From assembly GCA_911728435.2 (NCBI GenBank), contig OU452199.1, forward strand, positions 39,009,253 through 39,073,252: a stretch of 64,000 bases of DNA, written 5' to 3'. The notes beneath the pieces were generated by a model. The model was given only the letters and a program-made list of their open reading frames with translations. It was not told where the DNA came from and did no database searches. Both the position numbers and the translations under genes were made by a program. How positions within the stretch are numbered: position 1 is the first letter of the stretch; each line of letters begins with the position of its first letter. Source of the stretch: Apoderus coryli (Eukaryota; Arthropoda; Insecta; Coleoptera; Attelabidae). Of the stretch, positions 5,737 through 64,000 are shown piece after piece.

Positions 5737-6171
5737 CAAGGTGATTCCTAAATTGATGAAATAAATAACATTTTCAAATAACTTTTTTTAAAATTCTGAA
5801 AAATAAGTTACATTCATTTATTACAAAATGTGCCACATAGGACCGTATTTGACACATTTTGTTTTGTCAACTTAAATAATATTATTAATAGTATTTATGT
5901 TAGGTGTATTTTGTAATAATTTAAAAATTAATGTAACTCGCTTATTTTTCAAATTTTGGAAAAAAGTTATTTGAAAATGTTGTATATTTTAACGTCTTCT
6001 GTAGTTCAATAATATTATTAATAATATTTATGTTAGGTGCATTTTGTAATAATTTAAAGATGAATGTAACTCGCTTATTTTTCAAATTTTGGAAAAAGGT
6101 TATTTGAAAATGTTGTATATTTTAACGTCTTCTGTAGTTCAAAAAGAAGTATCAACTTAAAAAGCACCATG
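5737..6171. mobile_element. MITE with TA duplication
   Basis: The terminal inverted repeats begin CAAGGTGATT on the left and, reverse-complemented, CATGGTGCTT on the right. TA duplications lie at 5735-5736 and 6172-6173. The arm containing ACATTTTCAAATAAC near 5770 reappears inverted at about 5975 and 6105. It has no coding capacity. Confidence 0.7.
5875..6140 (+). repeat. 133-bp tandem duplication inside the MITE
   Basis: Two head-to-tail units with a 133-bp period (about 5875-6007 and 6008-6140) share the blocks TTATGTTAGGTG, TAACTCGCTTATTTTTC and TTAACGTCTTCTGTAGTTC with only a few differences. This duplicates one inner arm of the MITE. Confidence 0.85.
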
Positions 6172-8897: not shown

Positions 8898-9099
8898 TAA
8901 ATTATTTACTTTGAAGAAAAACGGGATTTCAAAAACACTATCTTATTTATCAGAACTAAATTCCTCACTAATCGTTTGCGTTTTTTGTTGAAATAAAAAC
9001 TGCAGATACGTGTAGGAAAAGAATTTACACCGTTTATTTTAGTCTTTTCATTGATTCAGTTTGGTTGCTTCTCAAGTTATTTTACTTTTACCGTACAAA

Positions 9100-10173
9100 A
9101 TGATTTATTCCATTCTAGAACGAGTTGAAATTGTTAAACTTTATTTTCAAAATAATAGTAGTGCTAGACTTACGGCTCGCTTATTTAATGAGAGACATCC
9201 CGATAAAAATGTGAATGATGTGTACGTTGGCAAGTTAGTTAAAAAGTTTGTAGATACCGGATCTGTCTGTAATGTAAAACACCAGCCGCAGAAACCGATC
9301 AGAAATGAAGCTGTGGAAATCGCTGTTTTAGGGCATGTTGAAATGGATCATAGTCAAAGTACCCGTCAACTAGCTGAAGCCTCAGGTGTCTCCCGTTCGT
9401 CCATAATACGAATTTTAAAAGCGTACAAATTTCATCCGTACAAAATCAAATTAGTACAGGAACTAAATGAGGATGATCCTGATAGAAGGCTGCAATTTTG
9501 TGAAGCAATGAGCCAGCGTTTAATTGAAGATCCGCAATTATTATTTAACATTTGTTTTTCCGACGAATGCACATTTTATTTGAATGGAGCTGTAAATAGG
9601 CACAATTGCCGTTACTGGGATGACAGTAACCCACATTTATTCCGTGAGGTTCATACCCAGTATCCTCAAAAAATAAACGTCTGGTGTGGCATATTAGGAA
9701 ATCATATTATAGGACCACTTTTTATTCCTGGAAATTTAACTGGTGAAGTGTACCTAAACATGCTTGAAGACACAATTGATCCTTTAATAACACAAATAAT
9801 ATAAGATGACCAAAATCATACTGCTGATCGGCTTTATTTCCAGCAAGATGGAGCACCTCCGCACTATGTGGCTCCTGTAAGACAGTTCTTAGATGACCGG
9901 TTCCCTGGACGGTGGATTGGAAGGAGGGGCCCAATTGAATGGCCTGCCAGGTCACCGGATTTATCGCCTTTAGACTTTTTTCTTTGGGGGCACTTAAAAA
10001 ATAAATGTTTTGCCACGAAGCCCGAGTCCATAGAAGATCTTCGCCAACGCATTACAGAAGAGTGCAGAAACATAACACCTGATATGCTACAAAATGTTAG
10101 AAATAGATTTGAACAAAATCTGTATTATTGTATGGAATCAAATGGGTCACATTTTCAACATTTGTTAATGTAA
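9100..10173 (+). pseudogene. DD41D mariner transposase, one in-frame stop
   Basis: This enzyme cuts and pastes its own element in the nucleus, using a helix-turn-helix N-terminus to bind the inverted repeats and a DDE/D RNase H-like core. From ATG at 9100 the frame is open to the final stop at 10171-10173, except for a TAA at 9802-9804 (codon 235). The N-terminal domain covers residues 1-110 (GVSRSSIIRILKAYKFHPYK). The catalytic aspartates are D155 (CFSDECTF), D250 (QQDGAPPHY) and D292 (RSPDLSPLDFF). Forty-one residues separate the last two, the spacing of the DD41D rosa group. An upstream TTG in frame was not chosen because ATG at 9100 gives the usual start of the family. All catalytic residues survive, so the copy is only one mutation from an open frame, or the stop is a sequencing error or read through. 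Confidence 0.93.
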
Positions 10174-11634: not shown

Positions 11635-12781
11635 CTATTTAGGTGACGAAATGGCGAATATTCTCCTGAGATTCTCAAAATATTCACTTAACGAATAAAA
11701 ACTGAATTCAAGTAACCAATCCCTTACGTTTCGTTTGAATTTACCCGGACCTGTATTCACTTTTAGATGATGGGGCAGATGATTATACAACTTAATAGGC
11801 ATTATAAGGCAACTATTTGCTGAGAGAGAGAGACGGTGTACAGGTAGTCTTAAATTTAAATTATCTCTAAGATCGTAGTTAGAAATTTGACCTGTGCTCG
11901 TAAACCGATCAATGTTAGAATACACGTAGAACACACACTCCAAAATGTAAATTGATGTTACTGTTAGAATTTTTAGATCTTTGAATAATTGACGGCAAGA
12001 ATATCTGGCGGATTTGAATATCATTGTTCTGATAATCCTTTTTTGCATCACTAGTATCTCACCCACGCGACATGAGTTTCCCCACAACACGATGGAATAA
12101 CACAGGACTGAATTAACATTTGCAAAATAAAATGATCGCAATTGAAACAAAGCTTCTCATTTTCCAAACTAAGAACGAAAGTCTGCAGAGCTTCACAGAA
12201 ACGGTCTCGATTTGTTTGTACCAATCTAGGTGCAAGTCAATGTCAACACCCAAGAATTTCACATATGATCTCTGTACTAGCCGGTGATCCCCGTTAACAA
12301 TTCTCATACTGTAGTTCACCTCCCTTGCTGAGAAATGTATATGATTTGTTTTTTCAAAATTCAAGACTAGATCGTTATTAGTACAATAATTCCGCATGTG
12401 CTCCAAACATTCATATCCTTTTGAACTTAAACCACTAATAGAGTCACCAGCTATTATAGCTGAGGTATCATCAGCAAAAAGGGTAATGTGATTTGCAGAT
12501 TTTATGTGTGTAGATATATCTGCAATGAGCAATATGAAGATTAGTGGTCCTAATGTACTGCCCTGGGGAACGCCGACGTCCAACTCCAGAACTGATGATT
12601 CAAAAACTTTGCCATCACGGTTGAGATTCACTTTTTGTTTCCTTTCTGATAAAAATGATGTTATCCAACTTAAGGGAGTGCCTCTAATACTGAAACCATA
12701 GAGTTTACGTAAAATCTTTTCATGATTCACCGTCTCGAAAGCTCGTGAATAATCGAAAAATAATATAGTATATTGTGTACT
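11635..12781 (-). pseudogene. 5'-truncated non-LTR retrotransposon reverse transcriptase
   Basis: The minus strand reads an RT from palm motif A to the C-terminus. Motif A is FFDYSRAFETVNHEK, motif B GVPQGSTLGPLIFILLIADI, and the active-site box FADDTSAII. The thumb and connection region follow (YVKFLGVDIDLHLDW), then a C-terminal part with YNHLPHHLK and FKRNVRDWLLEFSFYS. A single frameshift near 12135 separates the two ORFs (12113-12730 and 11635-12150). The 5' end stops abruptly at about 12781, so the fingers domain and endonuclease are missing, as is usual after incomplete target-primed reverse transcription. The FADD box places it in the Jockey/CR1 superfamily; the exact clade is not resolved. 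Confidence 0.9.
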
Positions 12782-23479: not shown

Positions 23480-25289
23480 GCAGCTAGATCTCTCAATGGC
23501 TTGAGGACCGATGTGCGGAAGCCGAACATCTTACCCGAATAGGCGATAGCTTTCATCTCCATAAGAAGATAAAAGAGATCGCAGGTCTATACAAGAATAC
23601 ACCAATAACCCACATCCGAAGTGAAGAAGAGGAAATAATACTGGAACCCGAGAAACTGCTGGAAACGTGGAAAACTTACGCTGCTAACCTTTTTGATGAC
23701 CAGAGAGCGCAAAATCCACCAATCCCAGATGACAATCTACCGGACGGCCCATACATATTAGAGAGCGAAGTTCTTAATGCCATAAAGCTATCAAAAAGTA
23801 ATAAAGCTCCAGGACCAGACAACCTGATATCAGAAACTCTTCCACCTCATAAGTGATCAAAACGTAAAAATAATAACTAGATTTTTTAATTTGATATACG
23901 ACACTGGAAACATCCCCACAGACTGGCTTCGTTCCGCATTTGTAGCCCTACCAAAATCGAATGACGTACAAAGATGTAAAGACTATCGGCTCATTAGCTT
24001 AATGAGCCATTTTTTAAAACTGCTTCTTCGAATCATGCACACTAGACTCTACAGAAAATGCGAGGAGGTAAGCGGATTTAGTCAGTTTGGCTTCAAGAAA
24101 GGGTTTGGAACCAGAGAGGCCATCTGCAGGCGTTGGTGCAAAACTGCCTTGATCAAAGAAAAAACGCCTTCATATGTTTCATCGACTATGAGAAGGCTTT
24201 TGATAATGTAAGACACGAACTCCTGGTAACATATCTTCAAGAACTTGGATTGGACAACAAAGATATAAAACTGATTGCGAATCTATACTGGCACCTGACA
24301 GCTCAAATACGACTTCAAAACTCAGTAACAACAGAGGAATTTGAAATAAAGAAAGGAGTCAGGCAGGGCTGCATTATATCCCCAATGCTCTTCAACCTCT
24401 ACGTGGAAAGGGTTTTTGCTGAGGTAGTACCTGAAGGACCCATGGGTATTATAGTTAACGGTGTTCCAATTAATAATATACGCTACGCGGATGACACCGC
24501 AATAATAGCCGATAATGCCAACGATCTGCAAACCCTGCTAAATCCTGTCAATGAGGCAAGTCAACAGAGGGGCCTAAAGATTAACATCACTAAAACGAAG
24601 TTTATGGTCATATCAAGAGATATCGTACCAAACGTAAATTTACAACTCAATGGAGAGCAAATAGATCGGGTCAATAAGTTTAAATACTTGGGGTCTGTGG
24701 TGGACGACAAGTGGAACCCAGAACTTGAAATTAGGTGCAGGATAGAACAAGCAAGAACAACTTTTCTAAAACTAAAAAAATTCCTCACCAACCGGAATTT
24801 AAACTTCCAACTCAGGTACAGAATGTTTAAATGTTATGTCTGGTCGGTTCTCCTATACGGAGCGGAAGCGTGGACGCTTAAAGCTGTTTCTATCAACCGA
24901 ATTGAAGCATTCGAGATGTGGATTCTGAGACGGATGCTAAGAATATCGTGGACGGAACACGTCCGAAACGATGATGTGCTCAGGATGGCTGGTTTGGAAG
25001 ACCGAGAACTCTTCGAACACATTAAGAAGCGGAAGATCTCTTACCTGGGACACATTATACGGGGAGAGCAATACGAATTCCAACGCCTGATACTACAGGG
25101 AAAGATCGAAGATGGAAGACGAGGCATTGGAAAGAAAAAATTGTCCTGGCTTAGAAACATACGCCAGTGGACGGGAATAAGCGACTTCCAGTCGCTCCAA
25201 GAAGCCGTCATAAATAGAATCATATGATAAGAAAAACTGAGGACGCTTTACGCAGGAATCTACATGGCACCAGAAGAAGAAGAAGAAGG
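23480..25289 (+). mobile_element. 5'-truncated LINE with (GAA)n 3' tail
   Basis: RT-coding sequence starts abruptly near 23490 and runs to a stop at 25225-25227. A short 3' UTR follows, then a (GAA)n tail at 25272-25289, a microsatellite-type end seen in several LINE clades. No clear target-site duplication was found. Confidence 0.85.
23490..25227 (+). pseudogene. LINE reverse transcriptase, nearly complete palm and C-terminus
   Basis: It copies its RNA at a nicked chromosomal site. In order: a pre-palm region with SNKAPGPDNL; then after a frameshift near 23852 IYDTGNIPTDWLRSAFVALP and SGFSQFGFKKG. After a second frameshift near 24122 comes a 364-codon frame from 24133. That frame holds motif A CFIDYEKAFDNVRH, motif B IKKGVRQGCIISPMLFNLY, the active-site box IRYADDTAIIA, motif D GLKINITKTKFM and motif E FKYLGSVVDDKW. 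A C-terminal domain follows with WSVLLYGAEAWTL and ISYLGHIIRGEQYEF. The two aspartates of YADD and the motif A aspartate are intact, so damage is limited mainly to two frameshifts and loss of the 5' half with the endonuclease. Confidence 0.93.
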
Positions 25290-36097: not shown

Positions 36098-36440
36098 GAA
36101 AAAGTTCCTGATGTTGGAACTCAATTTATGAATTAATTATTTATTGTTTTGGCCTCAAAATACCTCATTACCTAATCCCATCCTTAACCTTTAAAACCCT
36201 ATTTAAATTTTTGCTACCAGACACGTATTAGCGGAGATTTCCATCCACAAAAATATGTCTGTAAATTTGAAAAAATTACCCATGTTTGAACTAAATTTAT
36301 GAGTTAACTATTTAATCTTTCCGCTTCAAAATACCTGATTACCTAATCTCATCTTTTGTCTTTAAGATCATAGCAAAATTTTTGCTACCAGATACGTATT
36401 AGTGGAGATTTCCACGCGCAAAAAATATGTCTGCAAACGA
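36098..36440 (+). repeat. Tandem duplication, ~171-bp unit
   Basis: Two diverged head-to-tail units (about 36098-36268 and 36269-36440) share TCAAAATACCTSATTACCTA, ATTTTTGCTACCAGAYACG and GGAGATTTCCA blocks. No coding content. Confidence 0.85.
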
Positions 36441-38695: not shown

Positions 38696-38770
38696 GTTTC
38701 AGACTTGGTGAGTAGCTGATTTCGGATTTCATAATATATTCATTCTTTCAGTACAACATATATATTATTG

Positions 38771-39297
38771 AGAGAGAGATGTATTTGGCGACACCTAGCG
38801 TGAACAGGCAATATGCCGGGTGAAACACAGTTCACAACGATGGCCGGACAAGAAGCAACAACTCCATTACATCCTATTGCCAACACTAGATGCGCCCGAA
38901 TCCCATAGCAGGGAGGCTTTATTTAAGAATTGCTTGTTACATAAAGCAACAAGACTTTAAGTTATGTTGGAAATTTGTTTCACACTACTATGCTTTCACC
39001 AGACGGCCGTTTCGTCGATCCACGACTCATCAGTGGTGATCGGCAGGCAGTGTGACCCAAATTTCCAACATTTACAAAGAGCTTATACTAGCACGAGAAT
39101 TGATTGAGAGAGAGATGTATTTGGCGACACCTAGCGTGAACAGGCAATATGCCAGGTGAAACACAGTTCACAACGATGGCCGGACAAGAAGCAACAACTC
39201 CATTACATCCTATTGCCAACACTAGATGCGCCCGAATCCCATAGCAGGGAGGCTTTATTTAAGAATTGTTTGTTACATAAAGCAACAAGCAATTCTT
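38771..39297 (-). mobile_element. Hammerhead retrozyme, copy 1 (1.57 tandem units of 336 bp)
   Basis: The block starting at 38771 recurs 336 bp later, giving a head-to-tail array of one and a half units. It is flanked by an exact 13-bp direct repeat ATATATATTATTG (38758-38770 and 39298-39310). It encodes no protein and carries one complete type I hammerhead on the minus strand. At the sense 5' end a 14-bp perfect hairpin (AAGAATTGCTTGTT and its inverse around GCTTTATGT) can form. Known animal retrozymes are small non-coding tandem units with hammerheads that circularise and retrotranspose with help from other elements; this copy fits. Confidence 0.9.
38997..39038 (-). ncRNA. Type I hammerhead ribozyme (retrozyme copy 1)
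   Basis: On the minus strand: stem I 5' strand CACCA (39038-39034), core CTGATGA (39033-39027), stem II GTCG/CGAC with a 5-base TGGAT loop, GAAA, a very short stem III (AC/GT around GGCC), then GTC with predicted cleavage after C at 39002. The closing stem I strand is TGGTG (39001-38997). All invariant core bases are present. An outer helix (38965-38977 with 39058-39070, plus AGTGTGA/TCACACT) extends stem I beyond internal loops, as expected for natural, fast-cleaving forms. Confidence 0.92.
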
Positions 39298-39310
39298 ATA
39301 TATATTATTG

Positions 39311-43529: not shown

Positions 43530-44752
43530 CGAGGGTTGCCTTCTATATTTCGGGATTAGAGATCAAAAAAAAATATTAATCATCGAAAATCACTTTATTG
43601 TTTTTCAAAATATTTCCCATGAAGATCTATAGACTTTTGCATGCGTTAGAACTAATTGTTGAAGCACTTTTGCCACTCTGATTGAGGTATCTCCAAAACA
43701 TGCATTCTGAATGCAGCAACCGTTTGTTTTTTACGTACGGGAATAAAAAGAAGTCATTCGGTGCCAAGTCAGGACTATACAGCGGATGACTCTCCAAATC
43801 GATGTTTTGGGTTCTCAAAAATGCAGTTGTTTGAGCTCGCATTGTCGTTGTGAAGAGTGATCCGTCTTCGGCGGTGGGTTTTCCTGATTTCTTGGAAGAC
43901 AACTGGCAAACAAATGGTTGGGTACCACTCAGAATTGACTGTTCTGCGTTGTTCTAGTAGTATGGTTGCGACATGTCCAGTTTTTCCGAAAAAACACACG
44001 ACCATTTTCTTGGAAGTCCTTCGTGCGCGAACAATTTTTGTTGGATTTGGCACATCTTGAAACACCCATACAGTCGACTGCTGTTTACTTTCGGGTTCAT
44101 ACGCGTAAATCCACGATTCATGACCTGTCACGATGTCATAGACGTGTTTCGAAGCACCGCAATCGTATTTTTTGAACATTTCTTTCGACCAATCGACACG
44201 AGCCTTTTTTTGACCGATTGACAAATTGTGTGGGATCCAACGCGAACAAATTTTTTTGACAGGCAAATGTTTATGCAATATTGAATGTATGCTGGTCCCA
44301 CTAATGCCTAAGGTTATCTCAATCTCTTGATATGTCACATGACGATCTTGCAATATCAGTTTGCGCACATCATCAATGGTTTTCGGAACAACAACTGATT
44401 TTGGACGACCTTCACGAAATTCGTCTTAAAGTGAACTACGACCACGATTGAAATCACCATACCATCGATAAAGACTGGTACTTGATGAAGCTTCATCCCC
44501 AAAAATTGAATTAAGTTCATCCATGCACTGTTGCTGAGTTAATCCACATCGAAAGTTGTAAATAATAATCGCACGAAAATGTTCACGATTTAATTCCATT
44601 TTTGGGCCGAGATGAATCTTATAAGTTACTGTAAACAACACAAATAGCGCTCGTATAAGCTCAAAAATGTCCAACTTTACGATAGAGCTGTCAGTTGCCA
44701 GATTGCAACACCGCAGGGTTGCCAAATCCCGAAATAGAAAAGGCAACCCTCG
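43530..44752 (-). mobile_element. SETMAR-type mariner, full length, 1,223 bp
   Basis: The inverted ends begin CGAGGGTTGCCTTCTATATT and CGAGGGTTGCCTTTTCTATT, with TA at 43528-43529 and 44753-44754. Length and ends are those of a complete mariner of the family that is widespread in insects. Confidence 0.95.
43595..44599 (-). pseudogene. Mariner (DD34D) transposase, inactive
   Basis: The start is ATG at 44597-44599 (MELNREHFRAIIIYNF). The N-terminal helix-turn-helix region includes GLTQQQCMDELNSIFGDEA. A second DNA-binding block follows (VTYQEIEITLGISGTSIHSI), then the catalytic domain with VYDIVTGHESWIYAYEPESK, TLHNDNASS and YSPDLAPNDFFLFPYVKNK. The first catalytic aspartate is replaced by histidine (TGHES for the usual TGDES). 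A premature stop after GRSSL and frameshifts in the catalytic part add to the damage. The C-terminus HGKYFEKQ is kept. Confidence 0.93.
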
Positions 44753-51881: not shown

Positions 51882-51895
51882 AATAATTTTTATAG

Positions 51896-52381
51896 AGAGA
51901 TGTTTGTGGCGACACCTAGCGTGAACAGGCAATATGCCGGGTGAAACACAGTTCACTAACGATGGCCGGATAAGAAGTAACAACTCCATTATATCCTATT
52001 GCCAACACTAGATGCGCCCGAATCCCCTAGCAGGGAGGCTTTATTTAAGAATTGCTTGTTACATAATACATACATAGTATAGTGTTGGCAATAGGATATA
52101 ATGGAGTTGTTACTTCTTATCCGGCCATCGTTAGTGAACTGTGTTTCACCCGGCATATTGCCTGTTCACGCTAGGTGTCGCAACAAACATCTCTCTCTCA
52201 ATCAATTCTCGTGCTAGTATAAGCTCTTTGTAAATGTTGGAAATTTAGGTCACACTGCCTGCCGATCACCACTGATGAGTCGTGGATCGACGAAACGGCC
52301 GTCTGGTGGAAGCATGGTAGTGTGAAATAAATTTCCAACATAACTTAAAGTCTTGTTGCTTTATGTAACAAGCAATTCTTA
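51896..52381 (+). mobile_element. Hammerhead retrozyme, copy 2, internally inverted
   Basis: Flanked by an exact 14-bp direct repeat AATAATTTTTATAG (51882-51895 and 52382-52395). The left part (51896-about 52065) lies in the opposite orientation to the right part (about 52080-52381), and both match retrozyme copy 1. The right part contains the hammerhead in sense. An inverted 5' section within one target duplication is the signature of twin priming during target-primed reverse transcription. Confidence 0.9.
52267..52308 (+). ncRNA. Type I hammerhead ribozyme (retrozyme copy 2)
   Basis: CACCA 52267-52271, CTGATGA 52272-52278, stem II GTCG 52279-52282 / CGAC 52288-52291, GAAA 52292-52295, short stem III with GGCC loop 52296-52302, C at 52303 as the predicted cleavage site, TGGTG 52304-52308. 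The catalytic core is identical to copy 1. The outer helix 52235-52247 / 52328-52340 is kept through a compensatory change. Confidence 0.93.
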
Positions 52382-52395
52382 AATAATTTTTATAG

Positions 52396-55307
52396 TTTTT
52401 TATACCTAGGCAGAAAAACAAATCGATTGTCACCCCAAACTATATTACACCCGGTCACAAGGCACTGCGAAAACTTCCGTCTGTGGGGTAAATCGAACCG
52501 AAAAAGGCTCCGTCCTGAAAAGGTGAATCTAAATTTATTTTTTATTTTTATTGTAGACATCAGATCTTTTTTTATTTAAATTGTTCCATATTTTGAATTA
52601 TTATGATACATTTCGTAGGTTATTTTCTATCAAACCCATAAATAACTAGTCAATAGTTCTGCTATTTTTAGGAAATGTGTTTTAAGTTTTTAACCTCTTG
52701 TTACACTCTTTTCGAACGCCTATGTGATCTATTTTTTATTAAATATTTAAGAAGTATGAATTTTTGAACCCTTTGTTAAACCTCCTGCCTACGCTCAATG
52801 TTTTCCAAAAATTAATCAGCACCTAGAAATATGCTGAAGAATTTTTGTACCAAATTTGTTAAAAATCTGTTAAGTGAGTTTTGAGTTATCGTGGATGGAG
52901 ATTTTTCTGGCCCTTTTTTTAAACTTTTCACAAAAGCCTATGGTACAGATATTTTTTTCGTATGTAACACCTATTCAACTACTTAAAAGGCTAAATATAT
53001 CATTTTACAGTCTAATTTTTTTAAATCTTTTTCTACTATCTTTTGGAAATCATGAAAACTAAGGCAAATAATAGTTTCACTTGCTTGAATGACCAAACGG
53101 CTTTCATTGAGTCCTATTTACCGATTTTTATAATTTTGTAGCATTTCAGTTCAATTCTTTTTGGGCATACTGTACTTACAGAAAAAGGATACACGTTTTT
53201 TTTTTTTCTTTTTGATAGGTATATTTGGAATCTAAGCTTAGATGCATTAAAATTCTGAATTGTATTTACTCAACACAGGATATTTTCGTGTTTGTGAGTT
53301 GTTTTCGTGTATTATCATTTAGAGTTTGATGTTTTCTGTACACAGATGTTTTTGTCAAATGGTAAGTTGTTACCTTATAAACTTATGTACACATTTGTTG
53401 TCCATTTTACGTTTTGTTTTTGTTTCTCTTATGCGTTCGTTTTTGTAGGACTGATGATGGCTTGTTAAGCCGAAACTAGTTTCCGTTTCCATAATTAAAT
53501 TAAATATTAGGTGGAGTTGACTTCGAAAGTTTTTGTCTGTTTTCTTTTATTTGACAAAAAGATTGATAATTAATGTTTTTTAAGTTATGTAGATGTTCGA
53601 ATGGTCCAATAATAACGCAGCTCATCGGCGAGGATACTTTTGGTTAAACCGCAAAGAAAGTATGACGTTATCATAGTGAAACCGGCAATAACCAGGGTTA
53701 GTGAATGCAAAAAGTTTGACTGTTTATAACCGGTTATGGCGTGAATTCGACTATAGTAACTATCTTTAACTTTGTTTGACCATTGCGACCATATTGAACA
53801 ATTACCTTATAATCCGAATTCGACCAAATTATACGATAGGCGTTTTCATTTCAAAGTCTACTTACTAAAAATGCAGAATCTAGTTATAAATCAAATTATT
53901 TAACCGGTCGGCATATATAACCATAATAATGTGTGCTGTACGTTGAAATAAATACAATTTCTCTCAGAATAATAATTATCAGCGAACATATTATAACACA
54001 TTTTAAAACAAACATATTTCATATTTTTCACGTAACATATGAAATTTTCTCATAATTTATACAGTACCTACTATGGTTTTAACTAAATATAATAGGTTCA
54101 GGAATCCACATTATACCAAAACTAATCAAAACTTTCTGTGCGAATTATTGCTTAATAAACAACTCTATGTTGGATTAACTTTTGCAAACTATGTGACTAT
54201 TAAAAGTATAGATAGTATAGTATGCCTATTATTATTATAGTTTAATAACAGGGTGATTTTAGGTACGTATTCAGGGACCCAAAACTATTATTATGCTTGA
54301 AGTTCCTATAAACATGGGTCCTATTCTCAGCCGATACAGAAATATAGGGTTAAACAACTCTCATTCTAATATTTTTATTAATTAGGCCTTGATGCGGGTA
54401 TGTTTCTTATAATTGTTGCCCTATTTATTATTAGATATTAGTTTGTCAATTTTGTCGTACATTGAGTGGAACATCTTCTAATAGGTTTTGCAAGTGATTT
54501 TGTAGAAAATTCAAGTATTCTTGTCCTATAAGATGACCGTCGAATATGGATGGACCGATGACTTGACGATTTACATACCACACATGCTGCATCTATGTCA
54601 GTCATACTCCACTCCTATTTTCAGGTTTGATTAACTTTCTTAAGGTATGATTTACATATAGCAAATGTACCTACGTGGATTTCAGTACATTCTGTCGCAC
54701 TACGTTCTGCTAAGTCTGTAAGTTCGTTGACTTCTATACCAATATATACTTTTGAATAGTATTTAAATATTATAAAACGCTAAATATATGAATATTAATT
54801 TATTAAAGTATTTAAATATTAAATACTATATCGAAAACCGAAGAATTTAAATAGTATTTGTTTTATTCTATGAAAATAATCACAATAAAATTAATGGATT
54901 AAAATTTTATTTACTAAAATTATTTAAATTTAACAAAAAATAAATACTTAGGTAGGTATAACACAAAATTAAAAACAGTTTTCTAAATTTTATATATTCT
55001 ACATTGTGGACTTTAAGTAACACTAAATACTCAAAATGGAACGTCGGACAGTGTATACCTGCCTGGGGAATTAATGAAAGTGCGGCAAAAGAAAACATCC
55101 TCTCAACCAAAAAATATTTAAATTTTAAATACTTAAAAGTATTTATTCCTGTAAATACTTGGACAGCTAAGAATCCATACGAATACTCTTTGGGCTCAGG
55201 TAAATGATTTGAAATAGCTTTGAGGGAACTTAGTGAATCTGATAAGTACATACCAAACGATCTATATGAACTAGTATATTATGTTGTATAGTGCTTGGCC
55301 ATCGAAT
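52396..55307. other. Non-coding stretch
   Basis: AT-rich with no recognisable gene. It contains the hammerhead-like motif at 53448-53484. CAGGGTGATTTTAGG near 54250 looks like an element end, but no partner was found. The frames at 54907-55251 have no family signal. Confidence 0.45.
53448..53484 (+). ncRNA. Minimal hammerhead ribozyme-like motif (Penelope-type?)
   Basis: GGA (53448-53450), CTGATGA (53451-53457), one extra T, stem II GGCTT/AAGCC with GTT loop (53459-53471), GAAAC (53472-53476), a tiny stem III (AC/GT around TA), then TCC (53482-53484) pairing with GGA. This layout matches the minimal hammerheads reported in Penelope-like elements. The single extra base after the core is a deviation. 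No element protein is found nearby, so this is probably a 3' fragment. Confidence 0.5.
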
Positions 55308-55412: not shown

Positions 55413-57298
55413 CAGGGTGTCCCCTCTCAATTGGAAAAACTTCTGGGGGATATTGAGGAACCATAGACAAGCAGTTTGAGATAAGAGACTGATGTCCGGA
55501 AGTGCATGGTTTTCAAATTACAGGGTGTCAAAGTTTTTTTCGAAAAACCTTTTTTTATCAATATCTCAAAGACACGTTAACCGATTTTCTTGAAATTCGC
55601 TGGTGATGTAAGCTTAATAAGACGCTCAGTTAGCACTAATTAAATGTTAATTATGACTTCCAGTGGCGCCCCGGGGGACAGTGTCACGAATAAAAATGAC
55701 AAAAAAATGTACGCTACTGACTTTTTTGAAAATTTTATATATTTTTTAGAAAGAGCAGTTAAAAATACAACTTTTTGGTCACTTCATATTTTTTCGTATC
55801 TCTCTCCGTTTTCGAGAAAAAAAATTTATTAGAAGGTTCATTATTATTAGAAAGAAAAACAAGGAGGCTTTTTTACAAATAATTTATTATTATTAATAGT
55901 GAAAATCTAAAATGAAATGGCAAGTTTCTGTGTTTTTTTCTTGCGCGTTTCTGTTTTACAGCCAATCTAAGAGGCTTTGTTATCTTTGCAGCCTTTTCGA
56001 GAATTTGCAGAGCAGTGTCCGATCAGAGATGTCGTTGAGGATGAAGTCATGGCACGCGTTCAGAATGAGCCCAACACTAGCACTCGTCAGATCGCGTCGC
56101 GACTTAATTGCAGCAAAAATACTGTCCATCGAGTATTGAAAATCCACGATCTGCATCCATTTAAACTTCAAAAGGTGCAGCATCTACTGCCTGGCGACGC
56201 TCCTCGGCGGCTCGAGTTCTGCGAGGGGTTGCTCGGTCAAGCGCATGAAAACGCTGATTTTTTAAGTATAATCTTCACGAGCGATGAAAAAGGATTTTCG
56301 CGCGAGGGGACATTCAATCCTCGTAATAACCACGAGTGGAGCGAACAAAATCCCCATGCTACGCACATCAGAGGATTTCAGCAGAAGTTTGGTGTTAATG
56401 TTTGGGCAGGATTTCTGGGCGACCATTTGATTGGGCCGTACGTTCTACCTGATCACCTCAACGGTAATAGCTATCTAGTTTTTTTGCGAGATATTCTGCC
56501 CGAGCTCGTGGAAGATGTACCCCTCCAGTTGCGTAGAGAGGCCTGGTTCCAACACGATGGTTGTCCAGCGCAGCAAGGTCGCCGGACTTGGCCCCCCTGG
56601 ACTTTTTTCTTTGGGGCGAAATGGAACGGTTGATCTATGCAACTCCTGTGCCGACAATGGAGGACCTATTTGCTAGAGTTGTGGTGGCAGCGGAATTTAT
56701 CGCGAACGATTCAGGCGTGTTTGCTCGGGTGCGCGAATCCTGGCTCGACAGGTGCAGAAAATGCATCAAAATGCATGGTGAACATTTTGAGCATTTGCTC
56801 CACTATTAATAATAAATTATTTGTAAAAAACCCTCCTTGTATTTCTTTCTATAATAATGAACCTTCTAATAAAATTTATAATAAAAAAATTTTCTCGAAA
56901 ACGGAGAGAGATACGAAAAAATATCAAGTGACAAAAAAGTTGTATTGTTAACTGAGCTTTCTAAGAAATATATAAAATTTTCAAAAAGTCAGTAGCGTAC
57001 ATTTGTTTGTCATTTTTATTCGTGACACTATCCCCCGGGGCGGCACTGGAACTCATAATTAACATTTAATTAGTGCTAACTGAGCGTCTTATTAAGCTTA
57101 CATTACCCGCGAATTTCAAGAAAATCGGTTAACGTGTCTATGAGATATTGATAAAAAAAGGTTTTTCGAAAAAAACTTTGACACCCTGTAATTTGAAAAC
57201 CATGCACTTCCGGACATCAGTCTCTTATCTCAAACTGCTTGTCTATGGTTCCTCAATATGCCCCAGAAGTTTTTTTCCAATTGAGAGGGAACACCCTG
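55413..57298 (+). mobile_element. Mariner-type element with ~490-bp inverted repeats
   Basis: It starts CAGGGTGTCCCCTCTCAATT and ends with its near inverse; TA follows at 57299-57300, while the left flank reads TC instead of TA. The inverted repeats cover about 55413-55902 and 56803-57298. The right repeat overlaps the transposase stop codon. It is inserted into the repeat also found at 37286-37490. Confidence 0.92.
55983..56809 (+). pseudogene. Mariner-superfamily transposase with internal deletion
   Basis: The frame from about 55983 reads VQNEPNTSTRQIASRLNCSK and HRVLKIHDLHPFKLQ (helix-turn-helix region), then IIFTSDEKGFSREG with the first catalytic aspartate. Next come FGVNVWAGFLGDHLIGPYVL and WFQHDGCPAQ with the second. 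A deletion then joins directly to RSPDLAPLDFFLWG (third aspartate) in another frame, which runs to TAA 56807-56809. Roughly the spacer between the last two aspartates is missing. A short GCA repeat at the joint suggests microhomology. The first N-terminal helices are also absent. All three aspartates are present, but the spacing is destroyed. Confidence 0.88.
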
Positions 57299-58476: not shown

Positions 58477-59983
58477 CAGGGTGGTCTATTTGAAATTAAC
58501 AGGTTCAATTAAAAATTCGCCCAATATTATGAATATGTGCATTTTCCACGAAAACATCAACGAGAGAAACCCCCATTTGCTAACGATGAGTAGAGAAATT
58601 AGGAAGAATTTTGAGAAATCATTTAGAGCAGGTTGGGAGCTATACAAATCAATTATTACAACGAACTAAGACTAAAATTTAAAATAATACAGCAGAAATG
58701 AACAAAAGATTAAACTAAATAAATTTTCAACTAAAAAAAGTTAAGCAACTAACGATAACAAAACTAATTTAATTGTTCGATATGACCCCCCTTTAGTCTT
58801 AAACACTTATTTACCCGTTCAATAAATTCACTCGTTACAGCTCGTGCAATTTGGACTCTAGGTAAGGCTTCGAATGAAGTTCGGATGCGTCCTACTAATT
58901 CTTCTTTTGAATTAATTAGGGTGGAATACACCTTTTGTTTAATTGCACCCCAAACATAAAAATCCAGCGGTGATAGATCTGGAGATCTCGCTGGCCAATC
59001 CCAAGGCCCTAAACGTCTGATCCATCGATCTTCAAACATTTCATTAAGTTGTTGTGTGATTCTATTTCCACAGTGAGGTGGTGCTCCCTCTAACTGGTAC
59101 CAACAACTTCTTAATTGATTTAATGGTAGATCATCCAAAAAATGCGCCAGAACATTTTGCAAAATATAAATATAACCTTCCGTATTTAAATTATGCTCGT
59201 AAATAAAATATTCAACATTTGTGTCTTTCACCATACAAAAAACTAAATTTATTTTGAAAATTTCGTTCACGAATAGCGTGCGGATTCTCAGAAGCCCAAA
59301 AATGACGATTTTGAAATTCCTAGATCTTGTTCAGCAGCACGCACTGATGATTCAGGATTTGTATTAAAATATGCCAGAACATTTACCACATTATCCTCAT
59401 TTGTAGTTACAGGTTTTTGTAGTACTCGATTTGCATGCCACTGCCCCACCGTATTTGATTTCTCAAAATTCTTCTTAATTTTTCTCTAGTCATTGTTGGC
59501 AAATGCGGGTTTCTCTCGTTAAATACCTACTCTACAGGTTCTATTAATCACTTTGTTACATTCTCCATGGATTAATAATACATTTACAATATCAGCATAT
59601 GAATAAATATTTTCCATTTTGTAATAGTTATTGTAAAATATAATGGTCACAAATATTGATAAATAACGAGTGGTTGGATAGCAACAACTAATTTCATATT
59701 TAGTTTGACGTTTATGCTAATTCAGAGAAATGTCATTATTTTCATGGCTAACTAAATTAATTAGCTAGCTTCCAGAGAGACAAAGGTAGGCGCTGCAGAA
59801 AAATTTAAAATGACGATATTTCGAAAACTATGCATTTTAGAAAATGATAACCTATTACAAAATTGCATTACTTTTTAATGCTAAGGAAGATAAAATAATA
59901 ATAGTATACCCATTCCATTTAAAAAAATTGACTTTCAACTGTTTTTCTTGAACCGTTTTCAATATAATTTTTTGACCACCCTG
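58477..59983 (-). mobile_element. DD41D mariner, internally deleted, with inverted N-terminal copy
   Basis: The ends CAGGGTGGTC (58477) and their inverse (ending 59983) are flanked by TA at 58475-58476 and 59984-59985. Besides short terminal repeats, bases 58555-58680 are an inverted copy of the transposase N-terminal coding region at about 59420-59525, making a foldback. Confidence 0.85.
58764..59617 (-). pseudogene. DD41D mariner transposase, first catalytic region deleted
   Basis: It starts near ATG 59617 (MENIYSYADIVNVLLIHGEC). The N-terminus is broken (ERNPHLPTMTRE). The sequence jumps from the helix-turn-helix (EQDLGIS) straight to NRHFWASENPHAIRERNF, removing the first catalytic aspartate. 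The frame 58764-59270 then reads CWYQLEGAPPHCG and DWPARSPDLSPLDFYVWGAI. The second aspartate is replaced by glutamate (LEGAPPH for the usual QDGAPPH). Forty-one residues separate it from the last aspartate, so it belongs to the same DD41D group as 9100-10173 but is a distinct lineage. Confidence 0.88.
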
Positions 59984-63128: not shown

Positions 63129-64000
63129 ATATAATAATAATAATACATTTATTTGCATTCAAACGATAACAACAAGATTAAGTGAGAATATCATAAATAC
63201 ATAACATAATAATTAATTGATATGCAAAATGGAGTTGAAAACAATTCATTAGAGTTCTAAGTTCAACCCCAAAATTCATAACTTTAGAACCAAATTTCTA
63301 ATACGTCCAACCAATAACTGCACTCCTTAGCCATGCCTTTTACTACAATCAAAGTTTACTACTTTCCACAAAAAATCTGAAAAGAAAAATTAAACAAAAA
63401 ACCTCTTTGAAGTCCAAAAGTCGATTCCTGTATTTAAACTTAAAAGTTGTAACCCCTAACTTTTTGAAGTCCTCTGGTATGTTATTGTATAGTATATAAA
63501 TTTGGTAAGTAAATGATCTCTTGAATAATGAAGTTTTGTGAGGCGGAGGGGAATAAGTCCGCGAAAACGTAAGTTCAACGTATGAATATCAGTCCTATAT
63601 TTAATTTTATTGGAGAGGTATGGAAGACGATGATTATTTATTATATTAAGAAATAAAACTAACGAATGTAGCTTTCTTCGATCCTGCATGCTCAGCCACA
63701 TAGCCTCCCTCAATTTGTGCGAAACGGGCTCAAATTTTCTAATTCCATACACGATTCTAAGGCATGATCTCTGAACCTTTTGAATTCTGTCTTTATCAGA
63801 ACAATCTAGGCACGGTCCATACACAACATCACAGAAGTTAAAGTAGCTTAGGACTAAACTATCGGCAAGTTTTTTTTTCTAAGGTTGTGATACTAGATGC
63901 CTATGGGGATATAACATCTTTAATGACGAATATGCTCTCTGAATATTGATGCTCACATGCTTCTTAAACCGCAACTCCAACAGGCGCCTGTTTTTACCAA
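63129..64000 (-). mobile_element. LINE, copy B, 3' part, runs off the window
   Basis: Ends in an (ATA)n-type tail at 63129-63147 and extends through a 3' UTR shared with 46125-46498 into RT coding sequence up to the right edge. Confidence 0.9.
63456..64000 (-). pseudogene. LINE reverse transcriptase C-terminal half, partial at window edge
   Basis: The minus strand reads in from the edge: NRRLLELRFKKHVSINIQRA, LADSLVLSYFNFCDVVYGPC, then (63456-63824) IQKVQRSCLRIVYGIRK, FLNIINNHRLPYLSNKI and HTLNLRFRGLIPLRLTKL. The SYFNFCDVVYGPC and KVQRxCxRxIYG blocks are the post-palm region of Jockey/CR1-type RTs. One stop near 63875 interrupts it. The palm lies beyond the window. Confidence 0.88.

Follow-up and report, generated by a model that had tools for sequence, protein, structure and literature searches.

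A probable hammerhead retrozyme of the beetle Apoderus coryli with head-to-head inserts and two fixed borders

Two copies of the element and their hammerhead motif

The window, a stretch of 64,000 nucleotides from contig OU452199.1 of the Apoderus coryli assembly (GCA_911728435.2, positions 39,009,253 to 39,073,252), contains two copies of a short element. Copy 1 had been described from its letters as protein-free, with a 336-bp tandem period, a type I hammerhead on the minus strand and a perfect 13-bp direct repeat at its borders, and each of these features was recovered. Two 187-nt copies (38767-38953 and 39103-39289) are 99% identical and lie 336 bp apart, the exact 13-mer ATATATATTATTG occurs twice on the plus strand of the window, as left (38758-38770) and right (39298-39310) target-site duplication, and since the 187-nt repeats sit 336 bp apart inside these flanks, copy 1 amounts to ~1.55 units. 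Retrozyme units are expected to span 150-450 bp, to be low in GC and to encode no protein; here the unit has 336 bp and 44% GC, and the longest stop-to-stop frame of copy 1 is 56 aa.

The larger part of copy 1 is an arm on the minus strand (38771-39289) that copies the sense (minus) RNA over ~1.55 turns of the 336-nt unit and has its 3' end, at the site named B below (unit position ~235), at the left border; its BLAST match begins at 38767, with 4 bases in common with the duplication, and the reference unit used as search query was taken from copy 1 (38767-39102, minus strand). At the far end lies an inverted 9-base piece (39290-39298, plus strand; the last base also belongs to the duplication), which is part of the element and was absent from the preliminary description. 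It is the tip of a second arm, ends at site A (unit position ~78) and is joined via a 6-base homology, AACAAG (39284-39289). Copy 2 (51882-52395) shows the same inversion in full view: according to the border and sequence readings, a 14-bp left duplication (51882-51895) is followed by a B arm on the minus strand (51894-52066, 3' end at unit position ~229), a 13-base filler at the head-to-head junction (52067-52079) and an A arm on the plus strand (52080-52386, 3' end at unit position ~83), the end of which overlaps the 14-bp right duplication (52382-52395).

Both copies contain a type I hammerhead motif. Hammerhead_1 (RF00163) matches copy 1 on the minus strand at 39039-38996 (33.8 bits, E 1.6e-6 in an 851-base search), and the cut predicted earlier between 39002 and 39001 agrees in position with the cut motif; the match in copy 2 lies on the plus strand at 52266-52309 (32.3 bits), with the predicted cut at 52303/52304. 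These scores fall slightly below the RF00163 gathering score of 34, and gathering-level searches listed no Rfam match over the entire window and no RF00163 match at 20 further loci. The core is unbroken in 82 of the 91 units that cover it, and its mismatch rate is 0.6% vs 1.7% in the rest of the unit. Helix III is very short and has a palindromic loop, ACGGCCGU. For the isolated 44-nt hammerhead, a rod fold other than the hammerhead is more stable (-16.5 vs -7.8 kcal/mol), with energies that leave out tertiary contacts.

Apart from the two copies, the window holds a minimal hammerhead-like core at 53451 on the plus strand (CTGATGATGGCTTGTTAAGCCGAAACTAGTTTCC, with a palindromic helix III), which is absent from the Rfam listing at E up to 2 and which we take to resemble PLE-type minimal hammerheads. 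Four frames (9061-9804, 43775-44368, 55977-56633 and 58764-59270) look by eye like pieces of Tc1/mariner-type transposases. Two short tandem duplications, at 5875-6142 (133 bp x 2.0, 96% matches) and 36111-36437 (171 bp x 1.9, 82%), gave no match to the hammerhead core pattern. Additionally, sub-threshold Rfam matches to families of microRNA and of Wolbachia sRNA fall on long inverted repeats at head-to-head junctions (window 51941-52149 and L061:3540-3720, the latter in a Penelope-like insert treated below) and are most likely artefacts of the inverted repeats.

Dispersed inserts and their borders

According to the preliminary description, such an element should recur as dispersed copies with target duplications, and this was found to be the case. 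A search of the 428-Mb genome with the 336-bp unit gave 133 matching pieces, which were grouped into 40 places including copy 1; since these 40 scored best among 1656 first-look candidates, young copies are over-represented. Copy 2 was absent from these places, and borders were read at 41 loci (39 fetched loci and the two window copies), from which L027 was dropped with borders and flanks as in L026, leaving 40. An exact flank repeat of at least 10 bp was present at 25 of the 40 loci, compared with 82 of 1560 mispaired flanks, and one of at least 12 bp at 21 of 40, compared with 12 of 1560, the mispaired counts leaning high because 13 element bases per side are included. Taken with the 40 dispersed places, the latter comparison puts the element and its duplications beyond chance. 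Judged by eye from the border sequences, the targets are AT-rich. Relatives of the retrozyme DNA were found neither in plasmids nor, with an exact pattern, in viral contigs. The dropped locus L027 (C21:11678425) and L026 (C21:12088801) have identical insert borders and flanks ~410 kb apart, and two places from a search for an older subfamily (C21:12034377 and 11624060) are separated by a nearly equal offset, pointing to a segmentally duplicated stretch of at least ~54 kb.

The borders are highly ordered. With the sense unit numbered from the base after the hammerhead cut, 62 of the 80 outer borders at the 40 loci are the start of the antisense strand, i.e., the sense 3' end, and these 62 lie within two intervals that make up 6.8% of the unit, namely positions 77-85 (site A, TTTAAGAATTGC...) and 227-240 (site B, TTGAGAGAGAG...). 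The B border falls in the unit's own CTCTCTCT stretch, and no poly(A) was seen in the retrozyme border sequences read. Counting a locus as two-ended when the sense 3' end stands at both borders (head-to-head, 3' ends outward), we read 23 of the 40 loci as two-ended, 15 as one-ended, one as showing neither site (L035) and one as complex (L040). The two-ended loci comprise 22 with one border of each kind (A/B: L009, L010, L013-L016, L018, L021, L026, L028, L032-L034, L038, L039, L041-L044, L046 and window copies 1 and 2), a single B/B locus (L023) and no A/A locus; under free site choice, at least 22 mixed loci out of 23 have a probability of 2.9e-6. At L015 and at copy 1 of the window, the second border consists of a short tip in which 12-15 bases match; such a tip is below the BLAST-table length and was read from the border sequence. 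One-ended loci have a single start-site border, at A (L011, L017, L036, L037, L045) or at B (L012, L019, L020, L022, L024, L025, L029-L031, L047), and the opposite end is joined directly.

Among the 22 A/B loci, the target duplication measures at least 10 bp in 20 and 12-15 bp in 19, with 13 bp as the commonest length; the shorter flank repeats belong to L009 (8 bp) and L021 (6 bp). The other 18 loci include eight with a repeat of at least 9 bp (exactly 9 bp in three, 13 bp in L030) and ten with 8 bp or less. That the inverted copies are assembly errors, or products of later recombination between separate inserts, is hardly credible when duplications of at least 10 bp bracket 20 of 22 A/B loci and the same diagnostic bases recur on both arms (see below), even if individual loci such as L023, which has no clear duplication, and the complex L040 may be of this kind. 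At L040, an 11-bp duplication is followed by another B-type border that has a short inverted piece, possibly a nested or repeated insertion.

The arms range from a fraction of a turn up to 1585 nt, or 4.7 turns, and their junctions show overlaps of up to 8 bases or fillers of up to 22 bases. In this respect, one has to consider self-priming on antisense RNA, in which a cDNA would fold back and serve as its own template, a route proposed in 2013 for the inverted repeats of Penelope-like elements (PMC3846280). The palindrome CTTGTT/AACAAG at the junction of copy 1 would suit such a process. However, fold-back should give the same end site on both arms, and the two sites differ in 22 of 23 two-ended loci; moreover, the arm 5' ends scatter across the unit apart from one cluster near 218-232, so that we consider self-priming very improbable here. 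The cluster concerns A arms, 7 of 27 of which end at unit positions 218-232, just past site B, while B arms show no corresponding cluster at site A. One possibility is that the enzyme encounters the opposite primed strand just past site B.

Template sequence and predicted fold

Whether the two arms of an insert go back to the same RNA can be read from 13 diagnostic positions at which two bases are each present in at least four elements. The comparison covered 22 elements in which each strand has units of 40 nt or more, i.e., 19 A/B loci (without L015, L026 and window copy 1) together with L019, L023 and L031. Discordance amounted to 18 of 671 comparisons (2.7%) within one arm and 10 of 353 (2.8%) between the two arms of one element, vs 15719 of 52153 (30%) between different elements, and none of 2000 shuffles of arm partners gave a discordance as low. 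It follows from these rates that a single RNA sequence underlies an insert in all its turns and on both arms, either one molecule or the transcripts of one locus. Furthermore, the hammerhead cut site is read through in 57 of 65 arms, and of 61 5' ends 2 are located 6 nt or less from it, so that the template must have been ligated or uncut. Crossing arms and shared variants fit a circle and a homogeneous linear multimer alike and do not by themselves separate the two.

Folded as a circle, the unit is predicted to form a dumbbell (circular MFE z = -5.7 vs 100 dinucleotide shuffles), and the two longest unpaired runs of this fold, 216-245 and 70-87, are those that contain sites B and A, respectively; the probability that one random position falls in each of the two runs is ~0.01. 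In 24 other copies, represented by one unit per element and folded as they stand, site A was at least 80% unpaired in 19, partly unpaired in three (L019, L023, L034) and mostly paired in two (L040, L041). Site B was at least 80% unpaired in 21 of these 24 copies, and the script found no site B motif in the remaining three.

These data bear on the form of the template. A linear multimeric transcript could have served for insertion from two starts, with the hammerhead acting elsewhere in the life cycle: the 57 of 65 arms that cross the cut site are also allowed by an uncut template, and hammerhead mutants left in vitro insertion unchanged in the experiments of PMC11167929. Nevertheless, we regard a linear template as unlikely, given that units match each other as well across the two arms of an insert as within one arm, and far less well when they come from different elements, that the two start sites face each other in the closed dumbbell as predicted, and that the hammerhead core is better conserved than the remainder of the unit. 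In addition, in other animal retrozymes circular molecules usually outnumber each of the other RNA forms, as described in PMC7229834.

Penelope-like elements and the proposed mode of insertion

The same genome contains Penelope-like elements (PLEs) whose inserts have the same layout. A genome search for the GIY-YIG domain (PF01541) yielded 1260 candidate places, and among the 150 that were scored all 18 neighbour pairs closer than 6 kb are arranged minus-then-plus, i.e., head-to-head with 3' ends outward; one PLE copy has an ORF with RVT_1 and GIY-YIG. Where the ends of PLE pairs were read, an extra tail of ~25-35 nt stood on exactly one side, together with a 12-14-bp duplication, in 11 of 12 pairs, so that the PLEs of this genome obey the one-of-each rule as well. 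The class of the pair L070/L071 was left unassigned (best repeat 11 bp). In a protein search with a PLE of this genome, those of the 120 matches listed whose names state an organism come from arthropods, namely longhorn beetles (Molorchus, Aromia), Tribolium, a lacewing, a springtail and mosquitoes.

The retrozyme is not itself a Penelope-like element, as copy 1 has no ORF with RT and GIY-YIG (longest frame 56 aa), and tblastn with two PLE ORFs against the 64-kb window gave nothing at E 1e-3. The retrozyme end regions have no similarity of note to the PLE stretches L048-L061; strong matches were confined to an old retrozyme copy in L060, besides one 16-base match in L061 (E 0.16). In L048-L061 the hammerhead core pattern occurs only in this old copy, which lies beside the PLE in L060, and Rfam lists no hammerhead at E up to 1 in the PLE inserts L060 and L061. 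PLE agency is therefore read from the common insertion pattern.

Another candidate mover is a LINE with an APE-type endonuclease, in which case the inversions would be ordinary twin priming. Twin priming in LINE-1 generates inversions with similar target duplications, the second start being scattered and a minority of inserts being inverted, and three frames in the window (11635-12730, 24133-25227 and 63456-63824) look by eye like pieces of LINE reverse transcriptases. In contrast to such scattered starts and minority inversion, both starts are fixed here and 23 of 40 loci are two-ended; the borders read lack poly(A), and the PLE inserts of the same genome, with which the pattern was compared, follow the same rule. 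Since 22 of the 23 two-ended inserts use two different sites, both self-priming and ordinary twin priming were set aside, and a LINE as mover appears improbable.

Considering all this, we judge that the element is probably a non-autonomous animal (non-LTR) retrozyme whose RNA circle is primed by both target strands through a PLE enzyme, with one start in each linker. A transcript of tandem units would be cleaved by its own hammerhead and re-ligated into a 336-nt circle, predicted to be a dumbbell with the hammerhead arm, a second arm and two single-stranded linkers between them. A Penelope-like reverse transcriptase with GIY-YIG endonuclease would bind this circle and cut an AT-rich target in both strands so as to produce 3' overhangs of ~13 nt, a length suggested by the target duplications. 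Both target 3' ends would then prime on one RNA, in linker A (~80) and linker B (~235), as we infer from the fixed borders and the variants common to both arms, and the two cDNAs, a fraction of a turn to 4.7 turns long, would be joined head-to-head, either via a homology of up to 8 bases or via a filler that reaches 22 bases. The outcome is seen at the loci themselves, as inserts that carry a sense 3' end at each border, A on one side and B on the other, with duplications mostly of 12-15 bp around them; in a minority, a single start-site border is present and the other end is joined directly. Against this model with PLE enzyme and circle stand the 15 of 40 loci with one start site and L023, which is B/B without a clear duplication (best flank repeat 7 bp). 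Further points against it are the lack of any match of note between retrozyme ends and PLE stretches, hammerhead scores below the gathering level, the preference of the isolated hammerhead for a rod fold, the negative Rfam search for hammerheads in L060 and L061, the folded copies in which site A is partly or mostly paired, and the start site that did not differ between strands in vitro (PMC11167929); moreover, a homogeneous linear multimer could take the place of the circle. As a more specific version, there is about an even chance that a PLE enzyme dimer sits at the dumbbell junction, with the two protomers each responsible for cutting one strand of the target and for starting synthesis in one linker, the circle being copied from both sides at once. 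If so, animal retrozymes would be parasites of PLEs that mimic the two-site template of the PLE with the two linkers of a circle.

The reading of the locus as an animal retrozyme thus stands in its anatomy (336-bp units, type I hammerhead, GC 44%, no long frame, long duplications, dispersal), but the picture of a simple tandem array has to be revised, because head-to-head inserts that start at two fixed sites make up 23 of the 40 loci. In line with the animal non-LTR retrozymes described in PMC7229834, the element has a type I hammerhead, tandem units, a GC content below 50%, no long frame, dispersed copies, duplications longer than 4 bp and a compact predicted circular RNA. By description it also resembles the hammerhead repeats of newt and axolotl (PMC7229834), which have units of ~330-350 bp, a very short helix III and a palindromic loop. 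The account in PMC7229834 is of tandem copies, to which the present data add fixed dual starts, borders with one of each and a layout in common with PLE inserts. A word search of its main text found neither "inverted" nor "head-to-head", and a two-sided, two-site insertion pattern for retrozymes was not found in the open-licence literature searched. Plant LTR retrozymes (PMC4918200), as described in PMC7229834, are likewise non-autonomous and have a hammerhead and a circular RNA intermediate, as would apply here too, but they possess LTRs, type III hammerheads and 4-bp duplications, unlike the type I motif and longer duplications of this element.

For PLEs, the two-sided, two-site pattern is already known in outline, while the element itself fits the animal non-LTR retrozymes. 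By the account in PMC3846280, head-to-head is the commonest PLE arrangement, a tail is optional on one inverted pLTR, and the layout was explained by self-priming on an antisense template; the rotifer duplications are 8-10 bp long, compared with mostly 12-15 bp in the retrozyme. In vitro, both strands were cut and extended by a PLE, and synthesis started at two internal RNA sites bounding the tail, with a start site no different between the two strands (PMC11167929); to this, the genomic pattern adds one site per side within one insert. The retrozyme thus shares head-to-head inserts, AT-rich targets and two internal start sites with the GIY-YIG PLEs of these two reports, and is unlike PLEs in having no ORF and in its start sites, which lie ~155 nt apart across a whole dumbbell arm vs a tail of ~25-35 nt.

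The insertion pattern suggests which enzyme moves animal retrozymes, for which LINEs or PLEs have been named, PLEs being a strong candidate through co-occurrence and common hammerheads (PMC7229834). As the inserts carry a readable signature in common with the PLEs of the same genome, namely two fixed start sites, one per side, and duplications of ~13 bp, the mover question becomes testable in any genome. The pattern also bears on the origin of PLE inverted repeats, ascribed earlier to antisense self-priming in PMC3846280, and a 336-nt retrozyme with two mapped start sites offers a small template for studying insertion by PLE enzymes.

An older subfamily is represented by the retrozyme relative of 84% identity that adjoins the PLE in L060. 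A search with this relative gave 3158 candidates, of which 40 were scored, and we read 20 places, chosen in part for visible opposite-strand pieces; classified by motif, five of these 20 are A/B, none is A/A or B/B, nine are one-ended and six are unclassified. Read by eye, hammerhead stem II in the older subfamily is mostly GUUG/CAAC vs GUCG/CGAC in the 336-bp family, a two-sided compensating change, and the region of helix III mostly has one extra base (ACGGCCCGU vs ACGGCCGU).
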